A stretch of 27,396 bases of DNA, from positions 1 to 27,396 of the IMG/VR virus record IMGVR_UViG_3300027759_000357. One strand, given 5' to 3'. Both the position numbers and the translations under genes were made by a program. This DNA comes from a virus. Shown here piece after piece: positions 1,765 through 23,439 of this stretch (its first letter is position 1; each line of letters begins with the position of its first letter). Below the pieces are notes generated by a model. It had not been told where the DNA came from. It made no database searches and worked only from the letters and a program-made list of their open reading frames with translations.

Positions 1765-3903
1765 TTATACATTAACAAGTGTTCCTCCTTGGAAATACCA
1801 GTTATTTCCACCATTAGTAATGTTTGAACCTGGTGAACTCTTTGTGGTATATATTCTATATGTACCAGCTGGTATATTTGTTGAGCCACTATAATTCACA
1901 ATCAACCCGTTTAACACCGAATTAACCGTTAAATCTGTCGCTGGTGGGTTGGCGTTTCCGTTTTTAATTGTTGAGTATTTTTGACCGTTAGTCATTCCTG
2001 TTGCAACAACCCATGTATACCACGCAACTTCTGCCGGTGGGACAGTAGCACTTGGTACTTGTATTGTTTGGAATTTATACGCAGTTATTGGATTACCCCA
2101 AACATCATTACCTCCAGTTGTTGTTGAAATTGGTGCGGTTAAAATAGTTGGTTCAGAAACCCCCCAACCACTATAAGCAAAATAAGCATTCATTTGCGAA
2201 TCAAATGTAGCTTGAGTTGTCGATGGTGTACCTAAGTTAAACCCTATAAAAGCACTACCTTGACTACTCATCCAACTTGCCAATGCTGTCCTTATTGTTG
2301 CGTTATTTCTATCAATAAATAAGTAAGCTTGGAAAGGTGGTGCCGTTGGTGTTGGCGATGGAGTATATGTTGGTGTATTTGTTGGTGTCTGAGTTAAAGT
2401 AGGCGTATTTGTTGGTGTCTCAGTTACCGTCGCAGTTACCGTTGGTGTATTTGTCGGTGTCTCAGTCACTGTTGCCGTTACTGTTGGTGTCTGAGTATTT
2501 GTTGGTGTAAGTGTTGGTGTTGGCGTTGGAGCGTCAATCAATCTAATTTCTACCAAATCATTTTCAGTTAATCCAGTATTAAATACTATATTCCATGTAC
2601 TACCAGCATCTAAAGTATTAGTATCTATTAAGTTTGTATTAACAATTAATTGTAAAGTACCTCTAGTTGTTCCACTTGTTAATACATCTAACGTATTTCC
2701 ACTAGAAATTGTAGTATGGAATGCATTTTTACTTTGACCAAAATCAACTGGTGGTACATAATTACTAATCGTAAATCCTAATTCTGTTAAGAATGTAATA
2801 CTCATACCACCACTAGTATTGAAGTTTGATACTATCAAGTTTCTATTTGGTGTTGTTGTTGGAGTTGGTGTTACTGTCTCAGTTGGTGTTGGTGTATTTG
2901 TTGCGGTCTCAGTTGGAGTTGGCGTATTTGTTGCGGTCTCAGTTGGAGTCGTAGTAACTGTTGGTGTTACTGTTGCAGTATTGGTTGGAGTTTGAGTAAG
3001 AGTAGGTGTTACTGTAGGTGTCTGTGTTTCAGTCACTGATGGCGTTACTGTTGCAGTATTGCTTGGAGTAACAGTCGCAGTATTGGTTGGAGTTTGAGTA
3101 AGTGTAGGTGTTACTGTAGATGTTGGTGTCTCAGTATTTGTTGGTGTATTTGTAGGTGTTTGAGTTTGTGTTACTGAAGGTGTTTGGGTTGGTGTCTCAG
3201 TATTTGTTGGTGTTACTGATGCAGTATTTGTTGGTGTTACTGAAGGTGTTTGAGTTGGTGTCTCAGTATTTGTTGGTGTTACTGAAGGTGTTTGAGTTGG
3301 TGTCTCAGTATTTGTTGGTGTTTGGGTTGGTGTTGGAGTTTCAGTACTTGTTGATGTAATTGTTACTGATGGTGTATTTGTATTAGTTGGTGTCTGAGTT
3401 GGTGTTGGAGTTTCAGTACTTGTTGGTGTTACAGTGCTTGATGGTGTTGCGGTATTCGTAGGTGATACCGTTGGTGATAATGTTGGTGTTTGAGTAACCG
3501 TAGGTGTTACTGTAGGTGTTGGTGATTCAGAAGCCGTAGGTGTTAAACCTAAAGTGGCTGTTGGTGATGGCGTATTGGTAGGAGTTTGAGTAAGAGTAGG
3601 AGTATTAGTAGGAGTTTGAGTAAGAGTAGGTGTCGGTGTTGGTGTTGGTGTACCACAGAAAGCTGATGGGTCTGTAAGTGTTAATACAACACCATATATC
3701 ATTTCTGTTCTTGTAACACCACTGTAAACAGCTGTAGTTCCTGTAGAACCAACATATATATCAAATGGTCCAACAGCATTATTTGTCCCATTAAATTTTA
3801 CAACTATGTTTTGATTACATCCAGTAATGTTATATTGACTTGTTACCGCATTTAAACATCCGCTCGCCTCATTAACTACGATAATATCAAAAATTTGCCC
3901 CAT
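1765..3903 (-). CDS. Fibre-like protein with two long Thr-Pro tracts and a C-terminal tip domain
   Basis: A 712-aa protein not matched to a named family. Residues 1-84 are a small beta-rich head with Cys residues and the motif GPFDIYVGS. Residues about 85-352 are a Thr-Pro tract (units such as [14 protein letters not shown]). Residues 353-457 form a globular segment containing [10 protein letters not shown]. Residues 458-522 are a second Thr-Pro tract. The final 190 residues (starting [15 protein letters not shown]) are a normal-composition domain rich in Trp, Tyr and Asn. The layout of head, extended stalk, mid domain, stalk and tip is what one expects of an adhesin or receptor-binding fibre, with the tip as the likely binding end; this is inference. 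It follows a 72-nt gap holding a 15-bp dyad, the longest spacer in the fibre block. Thr-Pro-rich stalks are stiff, extended and possible glycosylation targets. Confidence 0.85.
2338..2530 (-). repeat. Second Thr-Pro coding tract of the 712-aa fibre
   Basis: Low-complexity DNA encoding degenerate repeats of [16 protein letters not shown] type, between the mid domain and the tip domain. On the plus strand it appears as repeated ggtgtNtNNgt words. It is similar enough to the longer tract at 2848-3651 that intragenic recombination could delete the mid domain. Confidence 0.85.
2848..3651 (-). repeat. Long Thr-Pro coding tract of the 712-aa fibre
   Basis: About 800 nt encoding imperfect repeats of [23 protein letters not shown] and [10 protein letters not shown]. 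Several units recur nearly identically in tandem, for example around 3180-3320. Composition is almost entirely Thr and Pro with Ser, Val, Asn, Gln and Glu. The repeats stay in frame throughout. Confidence 0.9.
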
Positions 3904-3975: not shown

Positions 3976-4296
3976 TTAATACAAAATTGTGTCAAATGTA
4001 CAAGCAGGATTGTCAATTGCAATTGTGAAAATACAATCCGCAGCAACAATTTGTATTGCGAAACCACAACCATATCTACACTCAATTATTTCAAATTTTT
4101 CACACCCATTTGAATCCGTTATTGTTAACATGATTGCAGGTGCGTAATTAAATATTGTTGGTAAATAATAATATTGTGTTGGTGGTACCGCACTTCCTAT
4201 GGTACCAATAAAAGTTGTGTTATTTCCATAAACGTCTGAAACATAAACATCATATGGTGACGCTCCAGTTATCGAATCAATCTGTATTCTTGCCAT
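3976..4296 (-). CDS. Small single-module fibre-associated protein
   Basis: A 106-aa protein of unidentified family. Residues 8-71 (ITGASPYDVYVSD, then IMLTITDSNGCEKFEI) resemble one SprB/PKD-type beta-sandwich; TDSNGC is also the ending seen in the repeats of the 819-aa neighbour. Residues 72-106 are a Cys-containing tail (CRYGCG, then CIFTIAIDNPAC). It starts inside a TAATG overlap with the end of the 819-aa gene, so the two are probably translationally coupled and may act together. It could be a fibre connector or a chaperone-like cap. Overlap and amino-acid composition support it being a real gene; the role is inference. Confidence 0.75.
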   Translation of the reverse strand: MARIQIDSITGASPYDVYVSDVYGNNTTFIGTIGSAVPPTQYYYLPTIFNYAPAIMLTITDSNGCEKFEIIECRYGCGFAIQIVAADCIFTIAIDNPACTFDTILY

Positions 4297-6755
4297 TACG
4301 ATTCACAATTAATGTCATATTGAATTATCAAATCAATAACCACTTGTTGATTTGCGAGGTCACCCTCAGTTTGAATTGTTATAACACTTGATGTTGTATC
4401 AACAGAAACTGCAGATACTCCAGGTACTGTTAATAATAAGGCTTCAACCGTATCATACCAATTTTGGTCTGTCGGAATATCTAATAAGGTCGTTCCTGTA
4501 TAAAACGATTGTTGATATGTTATACCACTCACAACAACTTCAGCAACATAAGTTGCAGCACTTAATTGACAATTTGTGTTTCCTATTGTTAAATCATTAT
4601 ACCCTTCATTTAACATTTGAAGAATTCCACGTTGTGTTCCTGATGTAAAAATAAATTCAGTTTCACACATCGTATAAATTTGATATGTTGATTGAATCGC
4701 GTTACAACTAATTGTTGTGTATCTTGTTTGGACACAATTGTTACTATCAGTGATGGTCAAAGAGTAAGTGCCCCCTGTAAGACCCGAAACATATATGTTT
4801 TGTGGATTTAATGACACATTATCCGACCACAAGAATGTAAACGGTGGTTCACCTGATGTAATTAAGGCTGTTATTGTTCCCGTGTCACCTGTTCCACAAG
4901 TTGTAGGATATAATGAAAAATTAATATTAGATGAAATAGGAATTGTAACATTTCCTGTTTGTGTACAACCATTTGAATCTGTTACAGTATATCCATAAGT
5001 TCCTGATGTCAATGAATTAAACGTGACATTTAATGATGAAGAATTAATTGATGAACCATCACTTAATTGATATAGATATGGAGCAGTTCCACCTGAAGAT
5101 AATAATAAATTAATCTCTCCATCATTATTACTACAAGTTCCACCAGTGTATGATGTTGTTACTGTGTATAAATTTTCAGCTATTATTGACACTCCTTGAG
5201 AATACGAACATCCAGTACCGTCTTGAATAAATACTGTGTAGTCCCCACTTGATAAATTAATAAATGTTTGAACCTCAGAATTAGATGCAATACTAATTGT
5301 GTTTGAATCAGGTTTTACTAACGTATATGTATAAGGAACTGAACCACCGACTAATGAAATTGATATTTTTCCATCTGTACTACTACAAGTGGAATTGGTT
5401 GTATTAATTTGTACATCATAAAAAGAATTTGGTGTCTGTATTACAGTATCAAATTGGATTTTACAAAGTGCCGCATCTGTAACCAACACACTAAACACAC
5501 CAGCGGATAATCCACTGAATAAATAATCTTGTGCGTATGTTACGGCAAAGGTTCCATTTGAACCTGAATAGAAATACGGACCCGTTCCCCCTGTGATTGT
5601 CAGTAATAGCGCTCCGTTTGATGTAAAACAACTTGGTGTTTGTGCACTCCATGAACCTAATCCAACTGAAGGTACATAATCAACAGATGCCGACTTTGTT
5701 TGAACACATCCATCACCTGAAGTTACTGTGCAAGTGTAAATTCCTTTAGTTAAACCAGTAATTGATGTTCCTGTTGTTCCGTCACTCCACAAATATGTAA
5801 ATGGAGAGTTACCTGTAACACCTGTCACATAAAGTTTTCCTGTTGGGCTAGCACATTGTGTATCATTTACAATATAGAATCCAAAATCTAAAGTATTTGA
5901 TGAGTAAACAATACAAGTATCAGTAGTTGCTGTACAACCCCCACCATTAACCGCTGTAACTGAATAAGTTCCTGCCGATAATGAATCAAAAATTGCCAAT
6001 CCATTATTGGTACTTTGTGTTGAAATTAAATTACCATTATTATAAATGTAATACGTGATATTCAAATCAGTTGTATCCGCAGAAACGGTCATACTACCGT
6101 TATCTAAACCACAAGTTGTGTTTGTTATATTAATAAAATCAACACCAAAAGAATTTGTGATGATTGCCGTAATATAAAATTGGTTATTAATTGGTGCTGT
6201 TGAATCGTTGGCTCTAATATAATAAACACCTGCTGATAAGTTATCTTTATAAGCACCTAACCCCAAGTTAGGACTATACCAATCAAAAGTGTATGGTGTT
6301 GTTCCACCTGACGCTGTGATTTCAATGGCACCCAAGGTAGATACACAAGTACCCGTAATGTTTAATGTATATGCAAAAGCGTTTCCATTATAAACACCAC
6401 TTAATGTTGGTGTTGGAGTTGGGTAATTTGATGGAGTAACACTTGGTGTTATAGTTACTGTTGGCGTTACAGTTGGCGTTACTGTTGGTGTTGTAGTTAC
6501 CGTTGGTGTTGGAGTTGGGGTAACATTTAGTAACTGACATGAAGGACAATCAGCATACCCAAACAGATTTACTGTTGAAACGGTGTCTACTGGTGATGAA
6601 CCTACAACACCAATACATTGATAACATCCACTTGGTAATGAACCTGTAAAAGTAAATGAGTAAATAATACCATTTGCTAATACTGGACCCGCATAAGTAA
6701 CTTCATAGGGAGTTGATGTATCACAAGATATTATTGTTATTACTGGAAATGCCAT
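4296..6755 (-). CDS. Tail fibre/adhesin with seven SprB-like repeats
   Basis: An 819-aa protein. Residues 1-77 are a Cys-containing head (STPYEVTYAG). Residues 78-117 form a Thr-Pro linker. Seven repeats follow at roughly 133-200, 210-283, 298-357, 374-440, 455-525, 538-605 and 618-683. They follow the SprB pattern: a starting Cys, G-x-I, GG-x-x-PY-x-Y or W-S-D-G, G-L-x-x-G-x-Y, and T-D-x-x-G-C. Clear examples are SPFTYLWSDGTTGTSITGL and GGTYSLTITDSNNC. The last ~130 residues form a separate C-terminal domain resembling the end of the 984-aa baseplate protein. SprB repeats are known from the mobile surface adhesin used in Flavobacterium gliding. Here the position just after the baseplate genes argues for a virion fibre. 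Preceded by AATATTTAGAAATAACA and a 27-nt gap; ends in a TAATG overlap. Confidence 0.87.
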   Translation of the reverse strand: MAFPVITIISCDTSTPYEVTYAGPVLANGIIYSFTFTGSLPSGCYQCIGVVGSSPVDTVSTVNLFGYADCPSCQLLNVTPTPTPTVTTTPTVTPTVTPTVTITPSVTPSNYPTPTPTLSGVYNGNAFAYTLNITGTCVSTLGAIEITASGGTTPYTFDWYSPNLGLGAYKDNLSAGVYYIRANDSTAPINNQFYITAIITNSFGVDFINITNTTCGLDNGSMTVSADTTDLNITYYIYNNGNLISTQSTNNGLAIFDSLSAGTYSVTAVNGGGCTATTDTCIVYSSNTLDFGFYIVNDTQCASPTGKLYVTGVTGNSPFTYLWSDGTTGTSITGLTKGIYTCTVTSGDGCVQTKSASVDYVPSVGLGSWSAQTPSCFTSNGALLLTITGGTGPYFYSGSNGTFAVTYAQDYLFSGLSAGVFSVLVTDAALCKIQFDTVIQTPNSFYDVQINTTNSTCSSTDGKISISLVGGSVPYTYTLVKPDSNTISIASNSEVQTFINLSSGDYTVFIQDGTGCSYSQGVSIIAENLYTVTTSYTGGTCSNNDGEINLLLSSGGTAPYLYQLSDGSSINSSSLNVTFNSLTSGTYGYTVTDSNGCTQTGNVTIPISSNINFSLYPTTCGTGDTGTITALITSGEPPFTFLWSDNVSLNPQNIYVSGLTGGTYSLTITDSNNCVQTRYTTISCNAIQSTYQIYTMCETEFIFTSGTQRGILQMLNEGYNDLTIGNTNCQLSAATYVAEVVVSGITYQQSFYTGTTLLDIPTDQNWYDTVEALLLTVPGVSAVSVDTTSSVITIQTEGDLANQQVVIDLIIQYDINCES
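6405..6524 (-). repeat. Thr-Pro linker tract in the SprB-repeat fibre
   Basis: Encodes about 40 residues of [16 protein letters not shown] type, the same kind of low-complexity DNA as the tracts in the 712-aa gene about 2.8 kb downstream. It separates the head from the first SprB-like repeat. Confidence 0.85.
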
Positions 6756-10646: not shown

Positions 10647-11726
10647 TTATGTTACGTTAAAAAAGTGATATCCATAATTTATTAAATCTCCAAGGTTGTC
10701 AACCTCACCTATTCTTTGGACTCTTTCATAGGCTGAGTTTTTTCCTCTCTCTATAAATACATTTGATTGTACTTCTGCTTGAGAAATTATTCCTAAAAGT
10801 AATTCATCTTTTACTAATGGGTCTTGAACCATCCAATCTTCATCTAAACCTGACGATTGTATAAAGTAAATTGTGTCCCCATTGGCATAATCATAGTAAT
10901 CCACATTCTGAATTGTGTAAGCGGTATACACTAAATTTATCTCTGTTATAATACCATAATCAAGTTTATTTTTTTGTATAGGAACCAATAATTTATATTT
11001 TGGTGTTCCATACAACGCTAACTCGGTTAATCTTGATGATGTATATCCACTAACGGTAAATGGTACTGTCACATATGCGGATGATACTTGGTCCACAACT
11101 AAATTAACAGCATCACCTGTGAATATATAATCATAAGATATTGGTGTCGCCGACCAAGAACCCGTATTTGGTGTAAAATATGCCGTTCCTTGTGGATTAA
11201 AATTTGGTACATTAACAAATGGTGTTTGAATTTTTTTCTCTACCTTTGTATTACCCCAAGGATTATATTGTGATAAAGTAATTGTGTATTTTTTTGGTTT
11301 TGAAGCGTAAACATGTGAAATAGAATTAGGTGTATAACTCGTAATTGGTTCTATTGGTGAACCGTCCCCCCAATCTATTGTGTATTGTGATAACTCCAAG
11401 AATGAATTAAATTCAATATCGGCGGTATTATAAACATTCCACGTATAAGGATTTGACGTGGTTGATGAAAATATAAAATTGGTAACAACATTTTGTTGTG
11501 AGATTGCTCCATCAAATGTGGAATAGTATCCAACATCAACAGTATTTTGAATAAGTAGAATTGGAACCGTAAGTCCTGTAAGAAGTGATGTGTAGTTTGT
11601 ATTACCAGTTAAGGTTTGAGTCATTGATGAATAAACACCATAAGTCTCACCTGAATACGTAACATCATGGACGATTGTTTTTAATACTTCAGGGGATACC
11701 CTGATTCTCATTACTTGTGTTTCCAT
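10647..11726 (-). CDS. Baseplate-region protein with a PKD-like domain
   Basis: A 359-aa protein. Residues about 100-170 form a PKD-like beta-sandwich, with hallmarks WGDGSP (119-124) and SHVYASKPKKYTITL (137-151), the usual D-W-G-D-G then H-x-Y-x-x-x-G/K-x-Y-x-V/I-x-L spacing. The flanking regions are not recognised; the C-terminal part (ESSxxVFIERGKNSAYERVQ style) is more charged. PKD domains are usually extracellular binding or spacer domains, so this could be a surface-exposed wedge or fibre-attachment subunit. It starts in a TAATG overlap with the 259-aa gene and is followed after 1 nt by the 302-aa gene. Confidence 0.82.
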   Translation of the reverse strand: METQVMRIRVSPEVLKTIVHDVTYSGETYGVYSSMTQTLTGNTNYTSLLTGLTVPILLIQNTVDVGYYSTFDGAISQQNVVTNFIFSSTTSNPYTWNVYNTADIEFNSFLELSQYTIDWGDGSPIEPITSYTPNSISHVYASKPKKYTITLSQYNPWGNTKVEKKIQTPFVNVPNFNPQGTAYFTPNTGSWSATPISYDYIFTGDAVNLVVDQVSSAYVTVPFTVSGYTSSRLTELALYGTPKYKLLVPIQKNKLDYGIITEINLVYTAYTIQNVDYYDYANGDTIYFIQSSGLDEDWMVQDPLVKDELLLGIISQAEVQSNVFIERGKNSAYERVQRIGEVDNLGDLINYGYHFFNVT

Positions 11727-19079: not shown

Positions 19080-20921
19080 TCAACTAAATGTAGTTGTCTG
19101 ATAATTCTTAACTCTAACTACAATGTCTTTAGATGGGAATCTAATTTGATAGATTTGATTTGGTTCGGCAAAGATAGTATTGTCTGTTAAAGAGATTTTC
19201 TTTGTAGCTGCGTCTGAATAAGGCATTGATGTCTGTGATGAACTATATTGTCCACCCACTTTACCATTAATTGATATGTCAGTCAAACTAATAACACCAT
19301 TTTCAGCTTGGATGATTCTACTTAATTCTGATAGTAAAATATTTTGTCCTAGTCCTCTAACCGCAGGACTAAAAAATGTTGTAACCCTGTCAATAATGTT
19401 TGAAATAACAACACCCGAGTTTTGAGCTGAGTCTAATACAACCGCCACTTCAACACCCAAATCAATAACCTGAGCACTACCAATGGTAACGTAATCATTT
19501 ATCATTCTATAATTTGAAAGGTATTCTGCTAAATTTTGTTTTAATGTCTGTGATACATCAGCACTTAAATTACCACTCGCATCATACGATAAAATTTGAA
19601 CATTAATTTTGTTATTGTTTTCAGTAATAGATACTTTTGCCGGTGCTCCAAACTCACCTGGCATGTTTCTGATAATAGCCTCGTAATCATGAATTGTAAC
19701 CGCTCTGTTTTGTGCCGCAAAGTTAAATGTTACATAATTTCTAACTTCTTCTGTTGATGGATAACCCGCTCCACCAATAGCCGCTGTCACGTTATTACAA
19801 GTTAATGAATTAATCACTTGGTTATTAATAATATCTGATGGGCCCACAACTGAAAAATCGACAGCCCCAATTTGAGTAATTGTATTTACACCCAAGTTTG
19901 TTGCTAAACCACCACCAATTCTATACTGAATAAAAATTGTAGTATTGGCTTGTGGAGTATTACCTAAAGACATTGAATTGTTTTGATATCTTTGGATTTT
20001 CAAAGGAACATCTAAAGTTGTAAATTGTCTCAATTGGTCTTCAGCAGTATTTGTTCCCCCACCAAATGTAAGTTTCATAAACCCTTCAGGTGTGTATTCT
20101 GTAATAAATCTATCTTGTGTCTGAATGTAAGTCCCAACTTTAATAGCTGGGTCATCAGATGGTTTTGTTGGGTCTGCAATGAATACTCTATCTTCAGCCA
20201 ATGCCGATACTTCATACCATCTTCCGTTTGGACTCATAAATTCTTGAGCTGTTGGTACGTTTGAATATGCTGTACCTTCTCTCTGAATAATAGAGGTAAC
20301 TCCCAAAACATTTTTTTCAGGTAAGAAAAATTCAAAGAATGGTCTAACATCATTTGGAGTTATCACTCTTTTGAATACCTTTGTAATTCCGTTTACAACA
20401 GTTTCTCTTTTTGTAATTGTATAGTTAACCAAGTTTCCGTTTTGGTCGAAGTTTGGAATCTTTAGTCTATTTGGAAAACCATCTTGGTTAAATGGTGAAG
20501 CAAAGTTCACGTCATAAATGGTTTCAAATATTTGCCCAGCACCATTAACCTGACTACCACGTCTTAAGATACCCAAATATCTTTCATCTTCTTTATCACC
20601 AAAAGCAGGAACCGTAATTGAAAAATCAACTAGGGCTACGGATGGTCTTTGACCAGGAATTTTTAATCCATAAGTTCTTGCAATGTTATAAATTGATGAA
20701 CGTTGTTGTGCATATTGAAGAACTGTTTCTTGAATACTTCTATCAATATGATAATGTAAGTTGTCAGCAACCGCTGCGTTCAAGTCCAAAAATACAGAAA
20801 ACACGGATGCGTCATTGAAATTGTCAATTAATTCTGGATAATACGTTCTTGTATAATTGATAAGTTCCTGACGAATTGCTTGGAAATCTCTTACCGTGTA
20901 TGAAATTTTTCTTTGAGCCAT
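19080..20921 (-). CDS. 6: Baseplate wedge protein, T4 gp6-like (baseplate J family)
   Basis: A 613-aa protein, close to T4 gp6 in length. The N-terminal part has the family pattern YTVRDFQAIRQEL (8-20), then FNDASVFSVFLDLNAAVADN (35-54), and HYHIDRSIQETVL. Around residues 403-421 is QNRAVTIHDYEAIIRNMPG, followed by a GAP, the baseplate J-type core in which a conserved Gln-Asn-Arg precedes a strand-helix. gp6 forms the inner wedge ring that links the hub to the outer wedge parts and changes shape on infection; it works with gp25 and a gp7/gpI-like partner. It lies 5 nt after the gp25-like gene, with its TATTTAACATAA leader overlapping the gp25 stop, matching the gp25-then-gp6 order of many myoviruses (W/J in P2). 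Confidence 0.92.
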   Translation of the reverse strand: MAQRKISYTVRDFQAIRQELINYTRTYYPELIDNFNDASVFSVFLDLNAAVADNLHYHIDRSIQETVLQYAQQRSSIYNIARTYGLKIPGQRPSVALVDFSITVPAFGDKEDERYLGILRRGSQVNGAGQIFETIYDVNFASPFNQDGFPNRLKIPNFDQNGNLVNYTITKRETVVNGITKVFKRVITPNDVRPFFEFFLPEKNVLGVTSIIQREGTAYSNVPTAQEFMSPNGRWYEVSALAEDRVFIADPTKPSDDPAIKVGTYIQTQDRFITEYTPEGFMKLTFGGGTNTAEDQLRQFTTLDVPLKIQRYQNNSMSLGNTPQANTTIFIQYRIGGGLATNLGVNTITQIGAVDFSVVGPSDIINNQVINSLTCNNVTAAIGGAGYPSTEEVRNYVTFNFAAQNRAVTIHDYEAIIRNMPGEFGAPAKVSITENNNKINVQILSYDASGNLSADVSQTLKQNLAEYLSNYRMINDYVTIGSAQVIDLGVEVAVVLDSAQNSGVVISNIIDRVTTFFSPAVRGLGQNILLSELSRIIQAENGVISLTDISINGKVGGQYSSSQTSMPYSDAATKKISLTDNTIFAEPNQIYQIRFPSKDIVVRVKNYQTTTFS

Positions 20922-20926
20922 TTATG

Positions 20927-21388
20927 TTAAATATTGATAATAACAAAATCTTTTGAATTAAAAACATCATTACTGATAGAATAATCAATTCTTACTTTTG
21001 CGGTGTATTCAGATACGTTCTGATTTGGTATGGTTAATTCGGGATTTATAATGTTTCCCGCTGTTGTAACGGTTTCACCCGCAGCTTCAGTATCAGGTGC
21101 GGTAATTGAAATGTTTGTTAATTGTAACTGTGGCATGTACTTATCAACAGAATCTCTAATTTCAGATTCGATGTTTCTAAATGTTGGTCCATCTAATGGT
21201 TCAAAGATGTATTCATAGAGTCTTGTACCAAAATCTGGTAAATAATATCTTGAACCTTTTCTTGTTAATAATAAATGAATTAGATTACTTCTGATTTCCT
21301 CAGCAGCATAATCCGTTAAGTCCAAATACTTTCCATCAAAAGAATCTACAAAGGGGAAACTTAAACCGTATGTTTTACCATTAGCCAT
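20927..21388 (-). CDS. 25: Baseplate wedge protein, T4 gp25-like (GPW/gp25 lysozyme-like family)
   Basis: A 153-aa protein, near the usual gp25 length of about 130-150. Family signature: the segment starting FPFVDS, the helix around 28-41 (AAEEIRSNLIHLLL), then TRKGSRYYLPDFGTRL (42-57) and YIFEP (60-64), with a regular helix after it (NIESEIRDSVDKYMPQL). The EPR motif of T4 gp25 is EPL here. The family is part of the sheath-initiating wedge and is conserved from T4 to type VI secretion (TssE). It starts inside the last codons of the DUF5522 gene (8-nt overlap) and is preceded by TATTTATAGACA. Confidence 0.94.
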   Translation of the reverse strand: MANGKTYGLSFPFVDSFDGKYLDLTDYAAEEIRSNLIHLLLTRKGSRYYLPDFGTRLYEYIFEPLDGPTFRNIESEIRDSVDKYMPQLQLTNISITAPDTEAAGETVTTAGNIINPELTIPNQNVSEYTAKVRIDYSISNDVFNSKDFVIINI

Positions 21389-21593
21389 TGTCTATAAATA
21401 TAGTTGTATTTCCTTTTTTGTGATTAGGAAAAAAAGGACAGTGTCTACAACCATTACCACAACAGTGTCCTCGTTTTAGATGAAATTCTTTTGTGAAAAC
21501 ATATTTTCCATTTTCAATATAAAAATAAGAAGGGGAAAGTTGTTCACCTTCCCCTTCATTGAATGTTTTTATATCTTCTTTATTTAATTTCAC
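21381..21593 (-). CDS. DUF5522-like cysteine-rich small protein
   Basis: About 70 aa from a GTG at 21593; an ATG 30 nt upstream at 21623 would give 80 aa but overlap nrdJ by 44 nt. The GTG gives the same 14-nt overlap seen at two other junctions here, so I prefer it, not firmly. The C-terminal half carries HLKRGHCCGNGCRHCPF, a C-C-x3-C-x2-C cluster typical of DUF5522 proteins, which are widespread in Bacteroidota. The cysteines suggest a bound metal or an Fe-S cluster; function is unknown. In this operon it sits directly behind a cysteine-dependent ribonucleotide reductase and in front of the gp25-like gene, so a role in redox or metal handling during nucleotide synthesis is conceivable but unproven. 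Confidence 0.8.
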   Translation of the reverse strand: MKLNKEDIKTFNEGEGEQLSPSYFYIENGKYVFTKEFHLKRGHCCGNGCRHCPFFPNHKKGNTTIFIDNG

Positions 21594-23439
21594 AAGCTCC
21601 ACCAGCACATGCCAACTCACCACTCAAATCTGTGTTGTCTTGTAATTCAACAACCTTTGATAAGTCAATTGACTGTAATTTAGAGAATAATCTTTCATAC
21701 TCTTCTTCAGTACAATCTTCAAATGGTGCTTGAATATAACTTCCACCATCATGAGGTAAAACTGACAAACCATTATAAAAGTCACGATTTTCCCACATCC
21801 ATTCACCCGCCAATTCCCAATCTTCGTTTTTCAAACTGATTGTTGCCGATACGTTGTGTGTGTTTGAACCAGTTCTGTGACCAGGTCTAACCCATTCTTG
21901 AGTGATTTTCTTAACACGGTCCAATAATTGGAATGGTGATTCTGTTCTCAAGATTGCTCCAATTGGTGCTTTCTGTGGAACTGAAATAACTGCCGTGTCG
22001 TGTGGACGGAAGAATTCATCTTCAACCAACTCAGGGTGATACATTGCCAAGTATTGGTAGATTGCTTCATTCTTACCTACACGGACTCTACGGATGTAAT
22101 AATCGTTGTGCCATGCGTGGATACCTGAAGATGTTCCCAATGTCAGAGATGTAGTTCCTGCGGGTTTTACAGTAGTTGTACGAGCCGACTTGTTTACACC
22201 AATCAACTCAGCAACTCTTGCGTTTTCTTCTTTTACAAGTTTAGCCGCTTCTTTCATGTTGTAACCCAATACAACACCAGAACCGATACCTGTCATAGAT
22301 ACACCAATCAACGCTTCTTTTTCAGTTGTACGTTTCCAAATGTCTCTCAAGTAATGGAAATCAGTATATCCCGCTTGAAGTGTTCCAATGAATGCTGCCG
22401 CTTTAACACGGTTGTTCAAGTCTTCTTGTGATTCAATGTCAGAAACATTTACCTCACACAAGTTACAGAATTGGTTTGGTCTCAAAGCAATTTCACAACA
22501 TGGATTAGTTCCCCAATCTTTGTCGTTTGTAAAATAAATACCAGGTTCACCAGCTCCTGAAGCTTCAACACGTTTCCATAAATCCATGAAGAATTCTTTT
22601 GTGATTTTGTGTCTAACCAAAGCCGCTGAATTGTTTGCTCTACCTCTTTGTGGATTTGTTTCCCACCAAGAACCTGATTTACATGCAATCATTTCGTGGT
22701 CATCAGCTGAGAACAATGAAATTAAAGCCGCTCTACGAATACCACCAGCAAGAACTGCGTCTGCAATGTGACATACCATATCGTGAACTTCAATCGGTGT
22801 CATTTTTTCACCATCTTCTTTAGCGTCCAACATACCTTTTAGTTTATGAAGACAATCCTTCAATGGTTGAGGACCCGGTGCTTTACCACCCGATGTTACA
22901 AGTTGAGCCCCTTTTGGTCTAACGTCTGAGAAATCAAATTCTGGTGTTGATAAGTGTTCACCAAAATAAGATTTCATTAATACTTTAATTGCGTCAGCCC
23001 AACCTTCAATAGAATCCCCAACCAAGAATCTTCTTGTTCTATTCGGGTTAGGTTTTCTAATTTCAGGAAGTTTTTCTACGTGGTGTTTTTGAACTGAGTA
23101 TCCAACTCCAGTTCCACCCAACAACAAGAACATTGATTCTGAGAAAGCATCCAAGTGGTCAATAGGTAAGTAAGCACAGTTGTAGATTCTGTTTGGAGAA
23201 ATCTCAATTGGTTTACCACCAAATTGCATTGACCTCATGGAAGGTAATACTTTTTTAGTGTATACATATTGATATACGTCCACAATTTCACCTGCGATTT
23301 GTGGGTATTTTTTAATATGCATGTTCATGTTTCTTGTTACTAATTCTTCCCAAGTTTCTCTTCTTTCCAACTCAGGGATGAATTTTGCGTACTTCATGTA
23401 GACAGTTAAGTCTGACAATATCTTTTGTGATGCGTCCAT
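21580..23439 (-). CDS. nrdJ: Class II (adenosylcobalamin-dependent) ribonucleotide reductase
   Basis: A 619-aa protein. It would reduce ribonucleotides to deoxyribonucleotides for phage DNA synthesis using vitamin B12 coenzyme. Catalytic pieces seen: Cys88 (NRIYNCAY), the N-x-C-x-E loop as Asn312-Pro-Cys314-Cys-Glu316, Cys325 eleven residues later (FCNL), and a C-terminal C-x4-C pair (Cys611, Cys616 in ACAGGACE). By known residues of the Lactobacillus leichmannii enzyme (Cys119, thiyl Cys408, Cys419, Cys731/736) these would be the redox pair, radical cysteine and reducing tail. PAGTTSLTLGTSSG (426-439) is the phosphate-binding loop. It is about 120 residues shorter than that enzyme, so some allosteric part may be reduced. 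The extra Cys315 after the radical cysteine is unusual. No separate radical-generating subunit is visible, as expected for class II. Leader TATTTAACAAA precedes the ATG. Confidence 0.93.
   Translation of the reverse strand: MDASQKILSDLTVYMKYAKFIPELERRETWEELVTRNMNMHIKKYPQIAGEIVDVYQYVYTKKVLPSMRSMQFGGKPIEISPNRIYNCAYLPIDHLDAFSESMFLLLGGTGVGYSVQKHHVEKLPEIRKPNPNRTRRFLVGDSIEGWADAIKVLMKSYFGEHLSTPEFDFSDVRPKGAQLVTSGGKAPGPQPLKDCLHKLKGMLDAKEDGEKMTPIEVHDMVCHIADAVLAGGIRRAALISLFSADDHEMIACKSGSWWETNPQRGRANNSAALVRHKITKEFFMDLWKRVEASGAGEPGIYFTNDKDWGTNPCCEIALRPNQFCNLCEVNVSDIESQEDLNNRVKAAAFIGTLQAGYTDFHYLRDIWKRTTEKEALIGVSMTGIGSGVVLGYNMKEAAKLVKEENARVAELIGVNKSARTTTVKPAGTTSLTLGTSSGIHAWHNDYYIRRVRVGKNEAIYQYLAMYHPELVEDEFFRPHDTAVISVPQKAPIGAILRTESPFQLLDRVKKITQEWVRPGHRTGSNTHNVSATISLKNEDWELAGEWMWENRDFYNGLSVLPHDGGSYIQAPFEDCTEEEYERLFSKLQSIDLSKVVELQDNTDLSGELACAGGACEIK

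Follow-up and report, generated by a model that had tools for sequence, protein, structure and literature searches.

The BACON array of crAssphage, which is tail-adjacent and is built of tandem beta-sandwich domains of the host phylum (PMC6949934), is the closest precedent for the protein described here, an 819-aa phage protein with a rod of seven tandem SprB repeats. Both arrays have position-specific clades, a conserved order of domains, and one poorly conserved terminus (PMC6949934). The BACON array has eight domains in one cluster and five to six in others, whereas the SprB rod keeps both its seven repeats and its length down to 33% identity. Unlike the BACON array, the SprB protein bears modules at either end and has a C-terminal domain in common with a neighboring tail protein. 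Alongside BACON, SprB would be a second surface domain of Bacteroidota to have become established in phage tails as an ordered array, in this case with an invariant number of copies.

The PF13573 pattern of the phage repeats (Cys / GG..PY / G.Y / D..GC) is the same as that of the SprB gliding adhesin and of T9SS-secreted SprB proteins. GhpA, the grappling hook of Aureispira (PDB 9flp and 9fly), likewise has serial Ig-like domains, but it is a bacterial surface protein of much greater size (the pieces solved extend to residue 5009) whose likeness to the phage rod is at the local domain level only (16 to 18% identity in the best matches; TM about 0.2). Among viral proteins, A0A6J5LD72 (714 aa) is clearly of the same family, with 35% identity over the full core in a structural alignment, and is described by annotation only. 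No papers on SprB repeats in phages, or on A0A6J5LD72, were found in a search that covered few subscription journals.

Tail operon, phage type, and host

The window, that is, the whole stretch of DNA analyzed, is a 27.4-kb IMG/VR viral record. Between the gene for gp25 and position 1765, the genes follow one another closely, no gap exceeding 74 bases (Table 1). The SprB-array gene sits in this baseplate operon with conserved synteny, directly downstream of a gene for a 984-aa protein. A DnaB/gp41-like helicase, a 5'-3' exonuclease, and a UvsX-like recombinase are also encoded on the strand of gp25 and gp6. Relatives with longer records extend to 295 and 326 kb, and a tail-sheath family was matched in all 12 long relatives tested (4 above the cut-off; the sheath lies outside the window), so that these viruses, the window's included, can be classed from sequence as T4-like jumbo myoviruses.

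TABLE 1 Features of the SprB-array locus and its surroundings in the window
Feature	Position	Strand	Remarks
Pro-Thr-rich modular protein, 712 aa, probable fibre or tip	1765..3903	(-)	From sequence; order kept in relatives
Adaptor-like protein, 106 aa	3976..4296	(-)	Stand-alone here; TAATG-coupled
SprB-array protein, 819 aa	4296..6755	(-)	ATG start; ORF real
C-terminal alpha/beta, docking-like domain (residues ~694-819)	4299..4676	(-)	hhalign and model
Rod of seven tandem SprB repeats (residues 133-693)	4677..6359	(-)	
Exchangeable N-terminal module and Pro-Thr linker (residues 1-120)	6396..6755	(-)	Module, residues 1-78; linker, residues ~79-120
Conserved tail-operon protein, 984 aa	6783..9737	(-)	Directly upstream of the SprB gene; same docking-like domain at its end
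Baseplate wedge gp6 / J-like	19080..20921	(-)	
Baseplate wedge gp25	20927..21388	(-)	
B12-dependent ribonucleotide reductase	21580-23439	Same as gp25 and gp6	

An earlier note on this DNA had read the locus as that of a phage fibre with a Flavobacterium-type host. The baseplate operon, with its gp6 and gp25 genes, is a fitting location for a tail fibre. The proposed host is favored by the matches of two proteins: UvsX matched only Flavobacterium phage immuto (43.7% identity; four records), and four of the six records matched by gp6 were from the same phage. Unlike the Flavobacterium-leaning UvsX, the ribonucleotide reductase shares 68% identity with its counterpart in Microcystis phage Mel-JY01 and 63% with those of Vibrio and Oceanospirillum phages; because it is nearest to that of a Microcystis phage, the host assignment is tentative. 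The virus is a large one of lake type, probably with Flavobacterium-like bacterial hosts. The moraphages, which are freshwater phages of up to 307 kb, have Flavobacteriia as predicted hosts (PMC12619734). Elsewhere in the tail operon, a 359-aa protein (10647-11726) has a PKD-like stretch (WGDGSP...SHVY...YTITL) recognized by eye, with no Pfam match above the cut-off.

SprB repeats of the 819-aa protein

The earlier note had described seven SprB-pattern repeats in this gene and had proposed a PF13573 profile search of residues 120 to 690. The 819-aa open reading frame (ORF) matched PF13573 in six stretches (E = 5.8e-26; 90.3 bits, against a curated cut-off of 28 bits), and the window DNA matched it at six places, five of them singly above the cut-off; none of 14 control genomes had a match. 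When a profile was made from the repeats of this ORF, it found all seven, now placed at residues 133 to 693, and the description holds. The repeats, which are 18 to 43% identical to each other within the protein, can be assigned to the SprB family on these profiles. Cysteines 137, 215, 301, 350, 376, 431, 457, 516, 541, 597, and 674 are kept in all 40 nonredundant homologues. The match to a Hoc-like Ig PHROG (E = 2.4e-5) is far weaker than that to SprB, and by profile strength the repeats are nearer to bacterial SprB, with Bacteroidota as best relatives, than to phage Ig-like domains.

The AlphaFold model of the core consists of serial beta-sandwiches (pLDDT, 82.5); since its pTM is 0.34, the domains are reliable and their arrangement, and hence the overall shape of the rod, is not. 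Among solved structures, GhpA gave the best matches, with its neck, its base, and fragments. The best viral match was BFVD A0A6J5LD72, from an uncultured Caudovirales phage and already labeled "SprB repeat."

Conservation of the rod among related phages

PF13573 was matched above the cut-off in 49 of 50 related records, 13 of them located by way of the SprB protein and 37 by way of the 984-aa neighbor; if only the latter are counted, the figure is 36 of 37. The contigs compared are fragments, and in the one exception (L043) the contig breaks off 298 codons into the following ORF. Every one of the 74 complete homologues in the first sets (40 nonredundant) had exactly seven repeats, as did 79 of 80 homologues of a later set, the remaining one being cut at six; these counts rest on one profile trained on these phages, though the Pfam model points to the same family. 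The rod is 560 to 585 aa long in all unbroken homologues. In 280 of 280 comparisons, the nearest relative of a repeat in another phage occupied the corresponding position. The rod is under purifying selection, with dN/dS values, rough because dS is high, of 0.08 to 0.11, compared with 0.04 to 0.10 for the C-terminal domain and 0.03 to 0.06 for the 984-aa neighbor. The phage family with this rod is abundant, with at least 545 candidate loci.

Further SprB repeats occur elsewhere in some relatives. Six records (L022, L049, L085, L088, L093, and L096) encode downstream fibre-locus proteins with one or two additional repeats, and in the 294,914-base record L014 a second, weaker SprB match (264505-265176) lies in a 738-aa ORF, far from the tail operon.

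The 984-aa neighbor and the common C-terminal domain

A domain of ~126 aa comes after the rod, and its last 90 residues are homologous to the C terminus of the 984-aa protein (hhalign probability, 96.9; E = 1.3e-10), while control windows gave E values of 0.02 or higher. Viral-contig stretches matching the 984-aa patterns encode a relative of that protein in 94 of 97 cases. In three records (L066, L079, and L099), a long ORF takes the place of the full 984-aa protein, and the common C-terminal domain is encoded by a 166-aa gene of its own.

Pfam, PHROGs, NCBIfam, PDB sequences, and AlphaFold with Foldseek gave no identity for the 984-aa protein, the model of which has low confidence. No match to T4 gp6 to gp11 was found in a comparison that is insensitive, as the window's own gp6 is only 16% identical to T4 gp6. 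A gp7/gpI-like role, considered for its KGTR..IE motif, was dropped after the database, structure, and T4 gp6 to gp11 comparisons gave nothing. Gene order and the common C-terminal domain suggest a link of this protein to the baseplate.

These same features bear on whether the 819-aa protein could be a neck whisker or a head decoration rather than a tail fibre. Ig-like arrays occur in such proteins too, and profile searches matched the neck whisker 9occ (E = 5.7e-5) and decoration proteins, besides the Hoc-like PHROG. We regard this assignment as quite unlikely: the 9occ and Hoc-like matches are generic Ig-like similarity, and the place in the baseplate operon, after a protein with a common C-terminal domain, is conserved.

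Exchangeable modules and the proposed fibre architecture

Terminal modules on Pro-Thr linkers are swapped between near-identical rods. The cores of L010 and L013 are 94.7% identical and their modules are unrelated; those of the window and L007 are 88.8% identical, and their N-terminal modules have no homology. Many homologues have no N-terminal module and begin right at repeat 1, and some bear C-terminal modules instead. The modules matched no Pfam family, receptor-binding families included.

The 819-aa protein likely belongs to the virion of a T4-like jumbo myovirus, where it would probably be a tail fibre near the baseplate, with a fixed shaft, a docking C-terminal domain, and exchangeable tips. 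The seven SprB-type beta-sandwich domains would form a shaft of fixed length, ~28 nm if each domain spans ~4 nm, and the C-terminal domain held in common with the 984-aa protein would dock this shaft in the baseplate or a fibre hub. Host recognition would lie mainly in the modules on Pro-Thr linkers, at the N-terminal end here and at the C-terminal end in other members, and also in the downstream adaptor and Pro-Thr-rich fibre. We infer virion location, docking, ligand, and host alike. The fixed number, order, and constraint of the repeats suit a length-setting part, and the swapped modules suit recognition. If true, a length-setting shaft with swappable, Pro-Thr-linked tips would show which part of the fibre sets the host range.

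Ligand binding by the repeats, as the earlier note had suggested, was not borne out by this pattern of conserved repeats and swapped tips. In a form of this explanation that we consider unlikely, it is the repeats that attach to glycans on the host surface or to an adhesin layer of SprB type belonging to the host, while the modules do no more than modify specificity. SprB-type domains are indeed Bacteroidota surface domains, and surface binding has been proposed for the crAssphage BACON arrays (PMC6949934); however, the repeats are conserved (dN/dS about 0.1) with fixed number and spacing, and it is the terminal modules that diverge and swap. The repeats look structural rather than adhesive. 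That the rod acts as a functional mimic, pairing with or riding on a host adhesin layer of the SprB/GhpA type or the gliding track, so that the phage reaches its entry site via moving adhesins, seems to us improbable.

The stop of the 819-aa gene and the start of the 106-aa gene overlap as TAATG, and the coupling proposed earlier is therefore real. The 106-aa product, seen at the time as a possible partner of the repeat protein, now reads as an adaptor-like domain that in other phages is fused to the next Pro-Thr-rich fibre: it forms 71 distinct short ORFs and the N-terminal end of 21 longer ORFs, mostly Pro-Thr-rich fibres. When it was compared as a candidate single SprB-like domain, the hhalign probability was 55. 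The 712-aa protein downstream and its relatives have long Pro-Thr-rich repeats, and their genes often lie at or close to the ends of IMG/VR contigs, probably through assembly breaks.

Bacterial relatives and origin of the array

The best 80 genome matches of the SprB protein were all from Bacteroidota. In the set seen here, these relatives carry 2 to 58 repeats and are more alike internally than the phage proteins (median best likeness within a protein, 55% versus 33%). T9SS sorting domains (CHU_C or Por_Secre_tail) were found in all three bacterial relatives scanned, whereas neither is present above the cut-off in the phage protein, in which no Sec signal peptide was seen by eye. Among 1,513 bacterial repeats, the best was 39 to 48% identical to the phage repeats. 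The tree of repeats is poorly resolved, and a single origin of all phage repeats was not rejected (p-AU, 0.86); no donor lineage was recovered from it, the alignment columns being too few.

The seven-repeat array is judged to be older than the whole phage clade. The earlier note had raised the capture of a host adhesin gene, which as a recent event runs against a clade-wide array with neither a type IX sorting domain nor a close bacterial relative. Although its repeat family is that of T9SS-secreted adhesins, it is highly improbable that the protein is a recently captured gliding adhesin or T9SS substrate, displayed on the host surface and not in the virion: besides these points, its gene lies in the tail operon. 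A viral contig annotated with a "SprB repeat" need not encode a host adhesin.

In LR756502, an uncultured phage of 642 kb, 14 SprB repeats lie in a single protein of 1670 aa (L103:13885-18897). Nine of these cluster beside bacterial repeats, and the protein is apparently a separate acquisition.
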